Assembly (NCBI GenBank): GCA_015075625.1
Contig: JABTTZ010000002.1
Span: 372,001 to 436,000, forward strand
Origin: Anaerolineales bacterium
GTDB taxonomy: Bacteria > Chloroflexota > Anaerolineae > Aggregatilineales > UBA2796
Reading direction: 5' to 3'
DNA: 64,000 nt
Shown: piece by piece, positions 1 to 46,075 of the stretch
Layout of the letters: the number at the start of each line of letters is the position of its first letter
Numbering within the stretch: position 1 is the stretch's first letter
Position numbers and translations under genes: made by a program
The notes under the pieces: generated by a model
The model's database searches: none
The model's input: the letters and a program-made list of their open reading frames with translations, nothing else
What the model was told of the DNA's origin: nothing

Positions 1-3000
1 CAGATAGGCTAAGATAAAGGGATCAATGCCTCCCTTCAGAACCGCTTTCACATCCCGCACACGGAGTCCGGTACGCAAATCCCGAATATACACCTCAGAG
101 CGATCTAAGGCATAAACACGGATCACTGTGTATTTTTCCGGTGGGGGTGCATCCCGCCGCCCCGCCGCAATCTCGCCTAAAACCGCCTGATAGTCATGCA
201 GCCAGATGGCGATTTTGGTGGTGTCGGGGATGGCATAGACTCGCGCATTGGCAAACTCGCTGTTCCCCCCGCCCCCTTCACGCCCGCCCATCCGGTGAAC
301 GCCGCGTTCCCCCTTCAGAAAGCCAAAAGCGTTCGTCCCTCGGATCATGATGCCCACCTCCAACAGCGAGGGTGAGGTGGCAAAGGCGGTGAGTGTATCG
401 TCAAACGTCCCCGCGCTGATCGGTTGAAAAACACCCCCCGCGCCTTCCGTTGGCGGGTGCATGACATACAAATCATGTTCATAGCCCTTGCGCTGCGCCC
501 ACCGAAGATACATCTCGGCAAGGCGGCGCACCCATGCCTCCGCCCCGTTCGGTGTTCCGCCCAGTTGGGTGGCAAGCGGCGCGATCAACAGCATCGCTTG
601 GTTGCGGTGGGGTAAATGCGCCGTCATCATCTCAATATCAAAGTAGCTCACCTGTTGATAGAGTGTCTCGTAATCACGGGCGAGTTCCGGTTGGTAATCC
701 AGCGCCCGATCTCGGTTGACGAGGACGCTGAAATCCTCAAGGTATTCCGCCCGTTCCAAAAGCTGCGTCAGCCGCGCCAAGAGGCGATCTAGAAAGTAGG
801 TGCGGCTCAGGGTTTCGCGGGCATCGTTTGTTTGCCGCCAGAAATCCGGCGTTTGCGTTTCGGCAATCAACTGCGTTTTCTCATCGCGCATTTCCTTCAC
901 CGCATCGCTTGCTTCCCAATCGGCAAGTTTGCGCCGCAAGACGGCAAAGCCTTCCACCAGCGCCGCCGTATCCATCCGCTGTTTGGCGCTTTCGCCCTCT
1001 GCCCCAGAGATGGTCACTGCTTCCCCGCGATCCGCCTCCTCAATGGTGATCGGCTTGATCTGAATCATGCCGCCCTCTGCCGAAAGGCGCAGCATGTGTT
1101 GATCTTTTGTGGAACGATCTGCCAAGATGCGGGCGAGGGGGGCGACGACGAGCCGTTCGATCTCGCGCTTGAGCGGACGCGCCCCATAGATTGGGCTGTA
1201 GCCTGTGGCGAGGACGAGATCAATCACCCCCTCGTCAAGCTCCACAAGAATCCCCCGTCGGGTGATTCCATCACGGCTGAGGACGGCGTTCAACTCTCGC
1301 GAGGCGATCTTCTTTAGCGCCGAGGGGGCAAGGTGGCGGAAGGTGACGATCTGATCAATGCGGTTGACGAATTCGGGGCGGAAATAGCCCTCTACATGGG
1401 CGCGGTAGTGGTTGTCAGAGGCATCGCCCCCCCGTTCAGCATCGGCATCGGTGGCAAAGCCCACCTGCCGCAGCGCCCGTTGACCCGATCCCAAGTTGCT
1501 GGTCATGATCAGGAGCGCATTGTGAAAAAAGGTTGTCCGTCCGGCGGAGTCGGTCAGCCGTCCCTCGCCCAATACCTGCAAGAAAATATCATAGATGCGA
1601 GGGTCTGCTTTCTCAAATTCATCCAACAGGACGATGCAGAAGGGCTGCTCACGGACACGCTTGGTCAGTTCGCCCTCCCCACTGAATGCGCCGATCAAGC
1701 GTGCCAGTCCGTCCACGCCGCCATATTCGCTCATATCAAAGCGGATCAAGCGTCCTGTATCGCCAAAAAGGTAGCCCGCCAGCGTCTTTGCCATTTCCGT
1801 TTTGCCCACGCCTGTGGGTCCAATAAAAAGGAATGTGCCGAGCGGCTTTTTGGGGTCGTTCAAGCCCGCTTTTATCGTGGCAATGACGTTGACCATCGTC
1901 CCCACAGCATGATCCTGCCCAATAATGCGCTCCCGAAAATAGCCTTCAACGCGGCTCATCTCCATTCGCGCATCGTCCTTGACGATGAATTCGGGCAGCC
2001 CGCTGCGCTTGCTGAAGGTGCTGATCACCGCCCCGCGTTCAATAATCGGGCGGTTCGTGCGGCGGGCAAGTCCCCCTTCCTCAGCTGATGGTGAGGCTTT
2101 TTTGATCTCACCCAAAGTATCTTCCAAGAGGCGGATCGCCTTGCCAGGGAAGGCGCGGTAAGGCGAAAAGCGACGGGAGAGTTCAATGGCTGTTTCAAGG
2201 GCGTTGGGGGCAATGCGCACATCGAAATCCCGTTCCAAATCGCGGGCAACACTGGTCAGGACGGCGGCAGCTTCATCGTCGGGCATGGGGTCAATGGTGA
2301 TCTGGCGAAACAAATTCAGGAAACTTGCCCCCAAACCCATTCCCATCGTCAGCCGTTCGGGGCGTGCCTCCCCAATCATGATCACCTCGCCCGAAGCGAT
2401 GTGCGGCTTAAGCGCCATGCCGATATTTGAATCGCTTTTTGACCAGCGCCCCACCTCCAACAAGCCGGGGAGATCGTCCACATAGAGGATCGTCTGCTTT
2501 TTCCGGCATTCGTTGGCAATATCGTTCACCCGTTCTTCCCATGTCCCAATATACTGCGCACCGGCAATCAGACGATCCGGCGTCAGATGCCACACTTCGC
2601 GCTTGAGCAGGGCATCAGGGACTTCCTTTTTATGAATACGGCGCACCACCTCTTGCAAGATCGCCGTTTTGCCTGCCTCGCTTTCGCCCACCAAGAGGAT
2701 GCTGTTGTTGCGTGGGGCGCACAGCGTCATGAGAATATCCTCAACCATCTCGGTGCGTCGGTAGGTGCGCCGAAAGCGCCCTTCGGCGGCTTGGGCGGTC
2801 ATATTCACGCCTGTTTCCTTCAACGCCCAAAAGGATTCTTTCTCGTCCCTGCCCAGCCCGCCGATCTCATCTTCTTTTTCTTTTGGTTTCTTCAGTGAAA
2901 TATCGAGTTCAAGTGTTTCCAGCGCCTCGCTGCGGGCATGTTTGAACGTCGTCAGGTGTTCTAGGGTGGCGTCATCAAACCAATTTGTCAGTTCGACCAC

Positions 3001-3399
3001 CGCCTGAGTCGGAATTTCCTCTTTGCTATACGCATAAAAGCTCAGGGGGGGCTGCCCAACCTTTGGCACGGTGATGAAGAATTGCCCATCGTCTTCGGGT
3101 TTCACAATCAGGCTGAACTGCATCTTGATCTGTTCGCGCCGTTTTTTCAGATTTTTGCGGCGGTCTACTGGGCGCAGCGGTACCACCACTTTTTGCAGGG
3201 TGATCGAGGAATCGAAATCGAGTTGGTGCAGGAACTGCGGCTGTATGGCGCGGACGCGCTCGGTAATTGCCTCGCTGAGATCGTTCTTGATTTCATCAAG
3301 GGCAATGCCAAACGCCGTGATGTCGGTGAAGGGCAGCGCCATGACCGTATAGGTGCGGTTCTCGTGACGCTGCACAAAAAGATGAAAGGTGAACTTCAT
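1..3399 (-). CDS. Clp/Hsp100-type AAA+ ATPase fused to a GGQ-less release-factor-2-like domain (3' end outside window)
   Basis: The frame is open for 1133 codons from the ATG at 3399 to the window edge. After a ClpX-unlike N-terminal region of about 230 residues come two AAA+ modules. The first has Walker A GESEAGKT near residue 243 and Walker B ILYVDDLPG near 303; the second has GPTGVGKT near 528, VLLDEFEKA near 593 and sensor-like TSNLGS. From about residue 815 the protein follows RF2 (PrfB): TPDFW, then AEMYLRWAQRKGY near 956, LKGERGVHRM near 1033 and finally IRDLRTGLRVRD near 1100, which matches the extreme C-terminus of RF2. The segment that carries GGQ in RF2 is missing and the SPF stop-codon tripeptide is replaced by a Gly-rich stretch. 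Inference: an unfoldase that may dock on ribosomes without releasing peptide. By alignment to RF2 only a few codons lie outside the window. Confidence 0.85.
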   Translation of the reverse strand, partial: MKFTFHLFVQRHENRTYTVMALPFTDITAFGIALDEIKNDLSEAITERVRAIQPQFLHQLDFDSSITLQKVVVPLRPVDRRKNLKKRREQIKMQFSLIVKPEDDGQFFITVPKVGQPPLSFYAYSKEEIPTQAVVELTNWFDDATLEHLTTFKHARSEALETLELDISLKKPKEKEDEIGGLGRDEKESFWALKETGVNMTAQAAEGRFRRTYRRTEMVEDILMTLCAPRNNSILLVGESEAGKTAILQEVVRRIHKKEVPDALLKREVWHLTPDRLIAGAQYIGTWEERVNDIANECRKKQTILYVDDLPGLLEVGRWSKSDSNIGMALKPHIASGEVIMIGEARPERLTMGMGLGASFLNLFRQITIDPMPDDEAAAVLTSVARDLERDFDVRIAPNALETAIELSRRFSPYRAFPGKAIRLLEDTLGEIKKASPSAEEGGLARRTNRPIIERGAVISTFSKRSGLPEFIVKDDARMEMSRVEGYFRERIIGQDHAVGTMVNVIATIKAGLNDPKKPLGTFLFIGPTGVGKTEMAKTLAGYLFGDTGRLIRFDMSEYGGVDGLARLIGAFSGEGELTKRVREQPFCIVLLDEFEKADPRIYDIFLQVLGEGRLTDSAGRTTFFHNALLIMTSNLGSGQRALRQVGFATDADAERGGDASDNHYRAHVEGYFRPEFVNRIDQIVTFRHLAPSALKKIASRELNAVLSRDGITRRGILVELDEGVIDLVLATGYSPIYGARPLKREIERLVVAPLARILADRSTKDQHMLRLSAEGGMIQIKPITIEEADRGEAVTISGAEGESAKQRMDTAALVEGFAVLRRKLADWEASDAVKEMRDEKTQLIAETQTPDFWRQTNDARETLSRTYFLDRLLARLTQLLERAEYLEDFSVLVNRDRALDYQPELARDYETLYQQVSYFDIEMMTAHLPHRNQAMLLIAPLATQLGGTPNGAEAWVRRLAEMYLRWAQRKGYEHDLYVMHPPTEGAGGVFQPISAGTFDDTLTAFATSPSLLEVGIMIRGTNAFGFLKGERGVHRMGGREGGGGNSEFANARVYAIPDTTKIAIWLHDYQAVLGEIAAGRRDAPPPEKYTVIRVYALDRSEVYIRDLRTGLRVRDVKAVLKGGIDPFILAYL

Positions 3400-3512
3400 G
3401 TTCCCGCCTCAGTCGGGTTCGGTGGGTAGTGAGGATCATTCTAGCATAGAGGGCAAGGGCTGCTCTCCCCAAGCAAAACTTGCATTCTTATTCGTTTTCA
3501 GCGATAATCAAA

Positions 3513-3522
3513 TGAACGTTCA
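3513..3522. promoter_or_regulatory. Palindrome TGAACGTTCA, possible TetR operator
   Basis: A perfect 10-bp palindrome lies 25 bp before the TTG start of the TetR-family gene, in the gap shared with the divergent Clp-RF2 gene. TetR proteins often repress themselves through such sites. Its role here is inferred from position only. Confidence 0.35.
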
Positions 3523-3546
3523 ATTACTTTCTTTTGGGGTCATTTT

Positions 3547-4155
3547 TTGACAATCAAACCCGCTCATCAAACCGTCCAGCGTGAGGATATTTTGCTGGCG
3601 GCAGCGCAGATCTTTCAAGAACGGGGCTTCGATGGCGCGACGATGGCGCAGATCGCCCGCCGTGTGCACCTGACGGCGGGGAGTCTTTACCACCACTTCC
3701 CCGCCGGAAAACGCGATCTCCTCCTTGCCGTGCTAAACACCGGCTTAGATGCCGTCCTCCACCAGTTTGAGCAGCTTGGGAAGGAAGTCCTCCCCGCGCC
3801 GGAACGCCTGCGGGCGATGATCCTTGCCCATGTCCTAAGTGTGACGCAAAACGTTGCCGTTGGTGCGGCGATGGTCTTTGAGATTCGCACCCTCATTGCC
3901 CTTGACCAGCCCGACGCCGAACGGGATGCTTTTCTTCAACGGCGGGATACCTTCGAGCAGCGCTATCGGGATGTGATCCAGCAGGGCATTGCAGCGGGGG
4001 ATTTTCGTCCGCTGGATGTGAACATTTTTGTGAAGGCGCTCTTGGGGGCGCACAACTGGATCAGCGTGTGGTATCGCGGGGAGGGGCGGCTGAGCGGGCG
4101 CGAGATTGGCGAACGCATGGTGGATACCTTCCTTTCCGCCCTGCGCTGCCCGTAG
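3547..4155 (+). CDS. TetR/AcrR-family transcriptional regulator
   Basis: A 202-residue protein with an N-terminal TetR helix-turn-helix; the segment MAQIARRVHLTAGSLYHHF at about residues 36-54 is typical, and the length suits the family. The start is the TTG at 3547; the next in-frame Met lies inside the DNA-binding domain, so a later start is unlikely. The C-terminal half is the variable ligand-binding and dimer domain and does not show the ligand. It lies directly upstream of an acyl-CoA dehydrogenase gene on the same strand, so control of acyl-CoA metabolism by an acyl-CoA-like ligand is a reasonable inference, not shown. Confidence 0.85.
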   Translation: MTIKPAHQTVQREDILLAAAQIFQERGFDGATMAQIARRVHLTAGSLYHHFPAGKRDLLLAVLNTGLDAVLHQFEQLGKEVLPAPERLRAMILAHVLSVTQNVAVGAAMVFEIRTLIALDQPDAERDAFLQRRDTFEQRYRDVIQQGIAAGDFRPLDVNIFVKALLGAHNWISVWYRGEGRLSGREIGERMVDTFLSALRCP

Positions 4156-43422: not shown

Positions 43423-43507
43423 GATCGCTATCGAGGAACGCCCAATTTTGAACGAAAGTGATCCCAAAGGTCATTTTGTACCCCATGAGGCGTTTGAATG
43501 AGGGGCG

Positions 43508-45705
43508 GTTGCAACCACATCCTGCCCGTTGAGGGTACTGAAACTTCCTCTCGGCAACGGGGAAGTGCGCTTTACAGACAGTTGCAACCACATCCTGCCC
43601 GTTGAGGGTACTGAAACGTCATAGGCAAGCTGCGTGATGATAGTGGCACGCGTTGCAACCACATCCTGCCCGTTGAGGGTACTGAAACACAAGACGGGTC
43701 ATTGACCAGCGTACCTTTTGCCGTGTTGCAACCACATCCTGCCCGTTGAGGGTACTGAAACGCCATAGGTGGTACGTGAAAAACGACTATCGTAAAGTTG
43801 CAACCACATCCTGCCCGTTGAGGGTACTGAAACCCGTGACGAACCCGGAAGCGGCACGCGAACAAAGTTGCAACCACATCCTGCCCGTTGAGGGTACTGA
43901 AACTACGGAGGATCGTCCCTGTACGACCACCCCACAAGCGTTGCAACCACATCCTGCCCGTTGAGGGTACTGAAACATGTGGATGGTGCTATGACGTTCC
44001 TCCGCCGAAAGTTGCAACCACATCCTGCCCGTTGAGGGTACTGAAACCTATGACGAAGCTGGAGTGCCGCGCCGTCCGCTCCGTTGCAACCACATCCTGC
44101 CCGTTGAGGGTACTGAAACACTACACCGAGGCACAAAAAGGCTGGCGCTGGACGTTGCAACCACATCCTGCCCGTTGAGGGTACTGAAACTCACTACTTC
44201 TGCTACTGCTATTGTTGCTGCCAGGTTGCAACCACATCCTGCCCGTTGAGGGTACTGAAACCATTGAAGGTGGGTATTGGACAGGTGGCTGAAGGGTTGC
44301 AACCACATCCTGCCCGTTGAGGGTACTGAAACTTCAGGTACGCGAGACACAAGTCTTCGTGCGCAAGTTGCAACCACATCCTGCCCGTTGAGGGTACTGA
44401 AACTTCGTTGCGTACAGCCTGCGCGCTCCTCGCATCACAGTTGAAACCACATCCTGCCCGTTGAGGGTACTGAAACCGTCTCAGCGTCAACCTTCTCTCT
44501 GAACTCAGCAAAGTTGAAACCACATCCTGCCCGTTGAGGGTACTGAAACTCAGTTTTCGGCAACGGGGCAAAACCTAGCCGCGATAGTTGAAACCACATC
44601 CTGCCCGTTGAGGGTACTGAAACCCGCTCCAGTCTTCTGGGATAAGCCAAACTGGTTCGGTTGCAACCACATCCTGCCCGTTGAGGGTACTGAAACATCA
44701 AAGAGCGCATAGACTCCGGTGATCTTGCTCTCGTTGCAACCACATCCTGCCCGTTGAGGGTACTGAAACATGCTTGTGTACGATAGCAATATCACGAGCG
44801 CACTGTTGCAACCATATCCTGCCCGTTGAGGGTACTGAAACGCAATCCAACCAAGTACCACGACCACGACCACAACGTTGCAACCACATCCTGCCCGTTG
44901 AGGGTACTGAAACACAGCTTATTGGGATTTAGTGGGCGGCTACGATGAAGTTGCAACCACATCCTGCCCGTTGAGGGTACTGAAACAAGCGTGAGCGAGG
45001 TCAACATCCCGAATGCGCTCATGTTGCAACCACATCCTGCCCGTTGAGGGTACTGAAACGTGATCATAGAGTAAGTGCGCAATCTTCTCGGGTTGCAACC
45101 ACATCCTGCCCGTTGAGGGTACTGAAACAGTTGGTGACGCAATTTTTAGAGGACTGACTAGGTTGCAACCACATCCTGCCCGTTGAGGGTACTGAAACCT
45201 TATACCCATTCCGCTGCCCAGACGTGATCCGGTTGCAACCACATCCTGCCCGTTGAGGGTACTGAAACACCTGGAATAGACGGCGGTTTGAGTTTGGTCT
45301 TTGAGTTGCAACCACATCCTGCCCGTTGAGGGTACTGAAACTAGCCAGCAAAGTACAAGACGCCGTTTCCGCGTGTTGCAACCACATCCTGCCCGTTGAG
45401 GGTACTGAAACGACGGGACTCGCAGAGTGATGAAGGCGGAAACCATTGCGTTGCAACCACATCCTGCCCGTTGAGGGTACTGAAACGTCCACGTTGGAAC
45501 TGGAGTATCCGTCGCGCCGCGTTGCAACCACATCCTGCCCGCGTTGAGGGTACTGAAACATCCAGCTTCAAGCCGATCACTCAGTTCGGTTGCCGTTGCA
45601 ACCACATCCCGCCCGTTGAGGGTACTGAAACAGCTCAAATCAAGCGCATTGAGAAGATGGAGCATTCCGTTGCAACCACATCCCGCCCGTTGAGGGTACT
45701 GAAAC
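43508..45705 (+). CRISPR. CRISPR array: 31 repeats of 37 bp, 30 spacers of 32-38 bp
   Basis: The repeat begins GTTGCAACCACATCCTGCCC and ends GAGGGTACTGAAAC (37 bp). I count 31 repeats. Repeats 14-16 (44440, 44513, 44587) read GTTGAAACC; repeat 19 has CATATCC; repeat 29 (45521-45559) has a 2-bp GC insertion and repeats 30 and 31 have CATCCCGCC. Decay on the right and a promoter on the left place the leader at about 43360-43507. The ACTGAAAC end would give an 8-base crRNA tag like those of type I or III systems. No cas gene is in the window, so the type is open. Open frames through the array are an artefact of periodicity. Confidence 0.97.
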
Positions 45706-45739
45706 ACCTTGACCTCAATCTGCAAACGACTGCCACACG

Positions 45740-46075
45740 GTGTATTCCGTGTTAAGCCCCAACGGGGTGATTATTCCTAGCGCGGGCGTTTTAACCCCGC
45801 GCCCTCCCGCCCCCTGCGGCGTCCACCCATGATCGCCCGCCGCTAAAGCAGCGGGCTAAGGCTGACCGCCCCTACGGGGCTTGAAGGCAAATGCCACACG
45901 GTGTATTCCGTTTTAAGCCCCAACGGGGTGATTATTCCTAGCGCGAGGGCTTTAGCCCCGCGCCTCCCTACGGGGCTTGAAGGCAAATGCCACACGGTGT
46001 ATTCCGTCTTAAGCCCCAGCGGGGTGATTATTCCTAGCGCGGGCGTTTTAACCCCGCGCCCTCCCCGCGCCTTCC
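45740..46075. repeat. Tandem composite palindromic repeats, copies B
   Basis: TGCCACACGGTGTATTCCGT heads three tandem units (at about 45731, 45892 and 45989), each followed by TTAAGCCCC, then ACGGGGTGATTATTCCTAGC and a CCCCGCGCC end. Between the first and second lies GCCCGCCGCTAAAGCAGCGG and CCCCTACGGGGCTTGAAGGC, also present at 35465. The units can form stems. The gap from the CRISPR array to the terminator at 46085 is thus entirely repeats. Confidence 0.8.

Follow-up and report, generated by a model that had tools for sequence, protein, structure and literature searches.

A 64,000-nucleotide stretch of an Anaerolineales genome (phylum Chloroflexota; assembly GCA_015075625.1, contig JABTTZ010000002.1, positions 372,001 to 436,000; hereafter the window) opens with a gene whose product, judged by profile searches and predicted fold, is a two-ring Hsp100/Clp-type AAA+ ATPase with a C-terminus derived from release factor 2 (RF2). 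By the same two lines of evidence, the last third of the protein truly descends from RF2, and this module is devoid of all known elements for stop-codon reading and peptide release. The same fusion was found in 22 distinct Chloroflexota genomes; the 22 distinct proteins, which share one architecture, were aligned and form the member set to which the counts below refer. The whole fusion is conserved over the long term. We tentatively favour, with a probability of roughly 0.42, a reading in which the non-releasing RF2 module would aim the Hsp100-type ATPase at ribosomes or translation intermediates, to which we infer that it binds.

Encoded on the minus strand, as are all of its parts given below, the gene occupies the window from position 3399 to position 1 as a single unbroken frame of 1133 codons. 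The initial annotation had described one open frame at 1..3399; the frame stands, but its strand is minus and the gene continues past the window edge. In the adjoining sequence (L003:9941-13399, minus strand), 57 more coding bases (19 codons, then the stop) complete a protein of 1152 aa, of which the window holds residues 1-1133. Pfam assigned AAA_lid_9 (residues 375-433), AAA_2 (518-684), ClpB_D2-small (691-767), and PCRF (839-1037). Pfam, NCBIfam, and PDB profiles agree that one frame joins two Clp-style AAA+ modules to an RF2-like region, as had been read from the bare sequence.

The RF2-derived module spans 1..966 (residues 812-1133, continuing to 1152 past the window). Its C-terminal 340 aa matched the NCBIfam RF2 model prfB (TIGR00020) with an expect value (E) of 6.8e-28, a partial match that stays under the cut-off for a full RF2; the match to RF1 was far weaker. 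The PCRF domain was found in this protein (Pfam, E = 6e-16) and in all 20 members scanned (best E = 1.6e-20). Profile alignments with RF2 chains in the PDB (Bacillus subtilis and Escherichia coli, E = 3e-17 to 2e-13) ran through three collinear blocks and skipped the GGQ domain: (i) domain 1 and the start of domain 2; (ii) the strand G..A.G.LK.E.GVHR; and (iii) the end RDLRTG...F..AYL. The AlphaFold2 model of the module (mean predicted local distance difference test score, pLDDT, 84.9) was likewise RF2-like. Every Foldseek match listed for it was a release factor (RF2 or RF1) or a ribosome-bound release factor chain, and the best PDB match was E. coli RF2 (1gqe; Z = 21.6, root-mean-square deviation (rmsd) 4.8, 281 residues aligned). 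An unrelated family as the source of the C-terminus was rejected on these matches. Within the module, domain 1, the helical bundle with TPDFW, lies at 625..966 according to the PDB profile alignment, the predicted structure, and the member alignment, and domain 4, with IRVYALDRSEVYIRDLRTG, at 1..123 (residues 1093-1133).

The module thus resembles RF2 in the fold of domain 1 and superdomain 2/4, and the core motifs Y..W, E.G.H[RK], and D.RT (the last in domain 4) are kept in 22/22 members. It differs from RF2 in everything that handles stop codons and release, and in being part of a 1152-aa ATPase. The GGTE..DW helix tip, used for reading the first base, the SPF tripeptide, and the RRHTSF loop occurred in 0/22 members, compared with 11/12, 12/12, and 12/12 true RF2s, respectively. 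The place of the lost SPF and RRHTSF lies at 250..294 (residues 1036-1050). The initial annotation had noted a Gly-rich replacement of SPF here; loss of SPF is common to all members, but the Gly-rich stretch is peculiar to this genome. Domain 3, which in RF2 carries GGQ, is replaced by a short bridge at 124..228 (residues 1058-1092). Its profile PF00472 matched none of the 20 members scanned, nor this locus in a scan of the genome, and none of the 22 members has GGQ at a domain-3 position. GGQ strings in three members (L044, L067, and L068) were considered as catalytic loops and rejected, as they sit in the AAA part or in a variable insert, outside domain 3. Past the window edge just 19 residues remain, which leaves no room for a hidden GGQ domain. 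The clean removal of domain 3 claimed initially holds for the main clade; two basal members (L029 and L117) and three from another family of the phylum (f55) retain a degenerate, GGQ-less remnant. Because of these remnants, the motifs were probably lost first and domain 3 later.

The fusion is patchily distributed. Ten of 41 close genomes carry it, with 1151-1199 codons in each open frame; G040, the eleventh carrier among the 41, has a more distant version of 1061 codons. The typical form is present in 17 of the 154 genomes of the order; in one of these, the incomplete genome G454, the frame at L077:5583-9064 is split by a frame change into pieces of 998 and 173 aa, which reflects a sequencing error or else a genuine frameshift. 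Three of the 11 genomes of f55 carry the fusion, and a class-wide sample added three more carriers (G627, G790, and G827). A contig scan gave no matches with the single protein as query; with the alignment as query it recovered carriers, all of them metagenome-assembled genomes labelled as Anaerolinea sp., Anaerolineae, Ardenticatenia, or Chloroflexi bacteria. Its other matches (Verrucomicrobia, Clostridia, and others) had 22-28% identity and look like ordinary release factors, and those checked have both SPF and GGQ. The scan covered two narrow peptide patterns, so that carriers may exist in other phyla. Nothing other than the novelty of the architecture speaks for an assembly or annotation artefact that joined two genes. 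An assembly error was rejected because the same junction recurs in 22 distinct genomes, each time within one frame of 1000-1200 codons; we regard an artefact as hardly conceivable.

In a tree of the release factor part, the fusions were monophyletic with a bootstrap value of 100, and L029 (from G040) and L117 (from G827) were the first branches. The fusions likewise clustered in a tree of the AAA part, where the root was weakly supported (62). Pairwise ratios of nonsynonymous to synonymous substitution rates (dN/dS) in the RF2-like part were 0.02-0.22, near those of the AAA part, with dS saturated in some pairs. The RF2-like module is therefore maintained by purifying selection.

What this selection preserves need not act on the ribosome. 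The fusion is without any codon-contacting element, and its RF2 module could serve off the ribosome as an RNA- or protein-binding domain, with the ATPase as a specialised chaperone or regulator that picks RNA-protein or protein clients. A precedent is the plant chloroplast protein PrfB3, also an RF2 relative that lacks SPF and GGQ, which stabilises petB mRNA through binding to the 3′ untranslated region (PMC5897788). PrfB3 is described as an RNA-stabilising factor of chloroplasts, and no ATPase fusion has been reported for it. It is domain 1 and the core of superdomain 2/4 that hold RF2 in the ribosome. Both are still recognisable in the fusion and under purifying selection, which speaks against a role away from ribosomes, even if reuse of the fold is possible. 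We consider such a role doubtful.

Turning to the ATPase, the first AAA+ module (D1; 2095..2832, residues about 190-435) is of the ClpA type without M-domain. Its nucleotide-binding loop is retained, with the Walker A motif GESEAGKT at 2665..2688 (residues 238-245; GKT in 22/22), and its hydrolysis site has decayed. The Walker B motif, here ILYVDDLP (2467..2490, residues 304-311), lacks the catalytic Glu in 22/22 members (DE in 0/22). At sensor 1, other residues, mostly GE.., stand in place of ATT, and the RRF finger also deviates. An aromatic residue (Y or F) occupies the D1 pore position in 19/22. The second module (D2; 1090..1965, residues 479-770; PF07724, E = 4e-40) has all ATPase motifs intact: the Walker A GPTGVGKT (1798..1821, residues 527-534) is identical in 22/22, and the Walker B DE, sensor-1 TSN, NR (Arg) finger, and GAR of sensor 2 are likewise found in all members. 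The D2 pore loop is missing. At its site (1672..1689, residues 571-576), GAFSGEGELT replaces GAPPGYVGYEEGGQLT; GYVG occurs in 0/22 members, and 20 have a shortened loop. In the other two, the basal L029 and L117, the loop length is retained; L029 has GFDI, which places an aromatic residue where the Tyr would be, and L117 has GSTE. ClpA is driven mainly by D2, and its Tyr residues of KYR (D1) and GYVG (D2) both touch the substrate (PMC9663308). After sensor 1 of D2, the tripeptide VGF (1456..1464, residues 646-648) stands at the position of the IGF/VGF loop, which in ClpX and ClpA docks into the H sites of ClpP (PMC9035409). This position reads xGF in 19/22 members and LGL in 2/22, with Arg or Pro as the first xGF residue in 6; the genome's own ClpB has no xGF loop. 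With ClpA, ClpB, and ClpC the fusion thus shares D1 and D2, the D2 motifs, and the D2-small domain, and with ClpA also the absence of the M-domain. Unlike these Hsp100 proteins, it has putatively HicB-like instead of Clp_N domains, an RF2 tail, altered D1 Walker B, sensor-1, and Arg-finger motifs, and no GYVG in D2.

The initial annotation had proposed a factor that recognises stalled or vacant ribosomes and feeds the unfoldase. It had overlooked the two N-terminal units, the decay of the D1 site, the intact D2 ATPase without GYVG, and the xGF loop of most members. A Clp-type ATPase joined to an RF2 that can neither release peptides nor read stop codons was borne out, but the picture of feeding an unfoldase is weakened because GYVG is missing from D2 in all members and the ATPase site of D1 has decayed. 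With D1 motifs and the D2 pore loop lost throughout, and with presence as patchy as 17 of 154 genomes in the order, the protein might also be a regulatory or decaying Clp paralogue, whose RF2 part would mainly be an oligomerisation or self-inhibitory tail without a role in translation. Strong purifying selection on all parts and the intact D2 ATPase speak against decay, and this explanation appears quite unlikely.

The N-terminal domain had no match to a Pfam family. In its AlphaFold2 model (pLDDT 83.9), unit 1 (3175..3399, residues 1-75) has a putatively HicB-like alpha/beta fold, and unit 2 (2890..3129, residues 91-170) shows the same order of strands and helices. HicB or HicB-like structures ranked on top in VIA-align (Z = 9.0 for 6g1c, 83 residues, rmsd 3.1). 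Since the Foldseek match (E = 0.03) and the PDB profile match to HicB (E = 0.45) are weak, two HicB-like units are suggestive only. The modelled fold of each unit is what the domain would share with the HicB antitoxin; it differs in having no HicA partner and in serving as the N-domain of an ATPase. The f55 members, L029, and L117 lack it. When 400 genomes of the phylum were searched for the domain outside the fusion, a search limited by its loose first step, the fusion gene itself was the sole match.

In the favoured reading, the RF2 module would dock on a ribosome or translation intermediate at or near the A site, with neither codon reading nor release. Balon and Pelota, which belong to the unrelated aeRF1 superfamily and likewise do not release peptide, serve as the model for this step. 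The docked module would position the ring, driven by D2, at a ribosome that has stalled or stands idle; a protein bound there might then be remodelled or extracted by the ring and perhaps passed to ClpP. The putatively HicB-like N-domain may bind the client or an adaptor. Without GYVG loops in D2, the client would have to be gripped by the D1 loops alone or be remodelled without full threading. Several observations are consistent with such targeting: (i) homology to RF2 by profile and predicted fold, with the release factor core in 22/22 and the stop-reading and release elements in 0/22 members; (ii) the bootstrap value of 100 for the release factor part, the dN/dS of 0.02-0.22, and a vertical, housekeeping-like genomic setting; (iii) the conserved D2 motifs (22/22), aromatic D1 pore residue (19/22), and xGF loop (19/22), together with two ClpP genes in the genome; and (iv) by analogy, Balon as a non-releasing A-site factor (PMC10901736).

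Other features weigh against it. Because the RF2 residues that contact the stop codon are gone, binding to the ribosome may be gone too. The lost GYVG of D2 and the lost D1 hydrolysis motifs, read in the light of the role of these loops (PMC9663308), would argue against a normal unfoldase, the missing D2 pore loop being the strongest such argument against a conventional one. Furthermore, six RF2-sized modules at the C-terminus of D2 could block docking to ClpP, for which the Arg or Pro that starts the xGF loop in 6 members also seems unfavourable.

A more specific form of the favoured reading is a single-chain machine for ribosome quality control in bacteria, in which the release factor part would be the docking head and the Clp ATPase would strip or extract proteins from stalled ribosomes. 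We hold this form to be somewhat improbable. Its likeness would be to Cdc48/p97 with Vms1 in eukaryotic ribosome quality control, where an AAA+ unfoldase is paired with a protein of the release factor type (PMC6514570; PMC5989216). The similarity is in logic only, as Cdc48 and Vms1 are two proteins, the fold of the release factor type is an unrelated one, and Vms1 releases peptide.

Like the RF2 module, Balon and Dom34/Pelota are GGQ-less relatives of release factors; the A site is where Balon and Pelota work (PMC10901736; PMC6514570). Their fold is unrelated (aeRF1 as opposed to bRF-PH; PMC6514570) and they have no ATPase fusion. Since Balon hibernates ribosomes (PMC10901736), the fusion might be a silencing or hibernation factor as well, in which the module would sit as a plug in the A site of ribosomes that stand idle, and the ring, by ATP hydrolysis, would load, remove, or recycle this plug. 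Loss of GYVG from D2 would suit a machine that remodels over one that threads. Yet no hibernation genes were linked to the fusion in the neighbourhoods compared, and most members have lost domain 3, with which a release factor extends to the peptidyl-transferase centre. We judge hibernation to be unlikely.

The genome that carries the fusion also encodes GGQ-bearing RF1 and RF2, the two ClpP proteins, and transfer-messenger RNA. Termination and trans-translation are therefore not replaced by the fusion, which coexists with a normal RF2. Besides it, the genome has five further two-ring Clp paralogues. A second unusual one (L096, G000:C2 near 353668-354864, 734 aa) has GKR in its D1 Walker A, no recognisable D1 Walker B, a normal GYVG loop in D2, and no GF loop.

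The neighbours of the fusion are housekeeping genes, e.g. RNase H, RuvA/C, globin, UvrA, and PIG-L. In part of the order, genes for a globin, a small membrane protein, and a lipoprotein lie downstream, with RuvA/C and YebC near; elsewhere, UvrA, PIG-L, or dehydrogenases are found. In the neighbourhoods compared, no gene accompanies the fusion throughout the family. A toxin or defence effector had been proposed initially, and a protein that attacks or senses ribosomes against phages would fit the patchy distribution and the generic similarity of the ATPase to AAA proteins of defence models. In PADLOC this similarity was confined to the D2 region, with no full-length match to a defence model. 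No defence genes lie beside the fusion, and no relatives were found in plasmids or viral contigs. A phage collection gave four weak matches, with 23% identity over half of the query, the level of ordinary release factors. Together with the housekeeping neighbours and the lack of a gene that travels with the fusion, these results led us to abandon this proposal as very improbable.

Directly upstream, a TetR-family gene (Pfam; 3547-4155) is divergent from the fusion gene and is not common to the neighbourhoods of relatives. A palindrome-like sequence, TGAACGTTCA, precedes it directly at 3510-3530 and, as read from the sequence, is possibly a TetR operator. Farther into the window, a clustered regularly interspaced short palindromic repeats (CRISPR) array extends over 43505-45721, with about 30 copies of a repeat near GTTGCAACCACATCCTGCCCGTTGAGGGTACTGAAAC at a spacing of 69-75 bases. 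No cas gene was seen among the long frames of the window, and translation of the array itself accounts for a 261-aa frame at 44940-45725. Adjoining the array, at 45709-46060, are three diverged copies of a repeat of ~95 bases with short G+C-rich palindrome-like blocks.

No description of a Clp-release factor fusion was found in the literature searched, and a 2019 survey of release factors (PMC6514570) does not mention Clp or a Clp fusion; the protein may have been annotated automatically in protein databases before. The parts are of known kinds. Their combination, with a release factor that lacks domain 3, was found nowhere else in that literature.

The usual view of class I release factors is that they read stop codons and release peptides. 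In the fusion, an RF2 stripped of both abilities has persisted as a constant component of an AAA+ protein while several Chloroflexota families diverged. The fusion is also a natural Hsp100 in which the D2 ATPase is kept and the D2 pore loop is missing, and it lets one ask about D2 hydrolysis without threading. Should it bind ribosomes, it would link translation and the Clp system within one chain in bacteria and would show a use of the release factor scaffold without catalysis. If, beyond that, it is a quality-control machine in one polypeptide, its logic would parallel, in bacteria, that of Cdc48 with Vms1.

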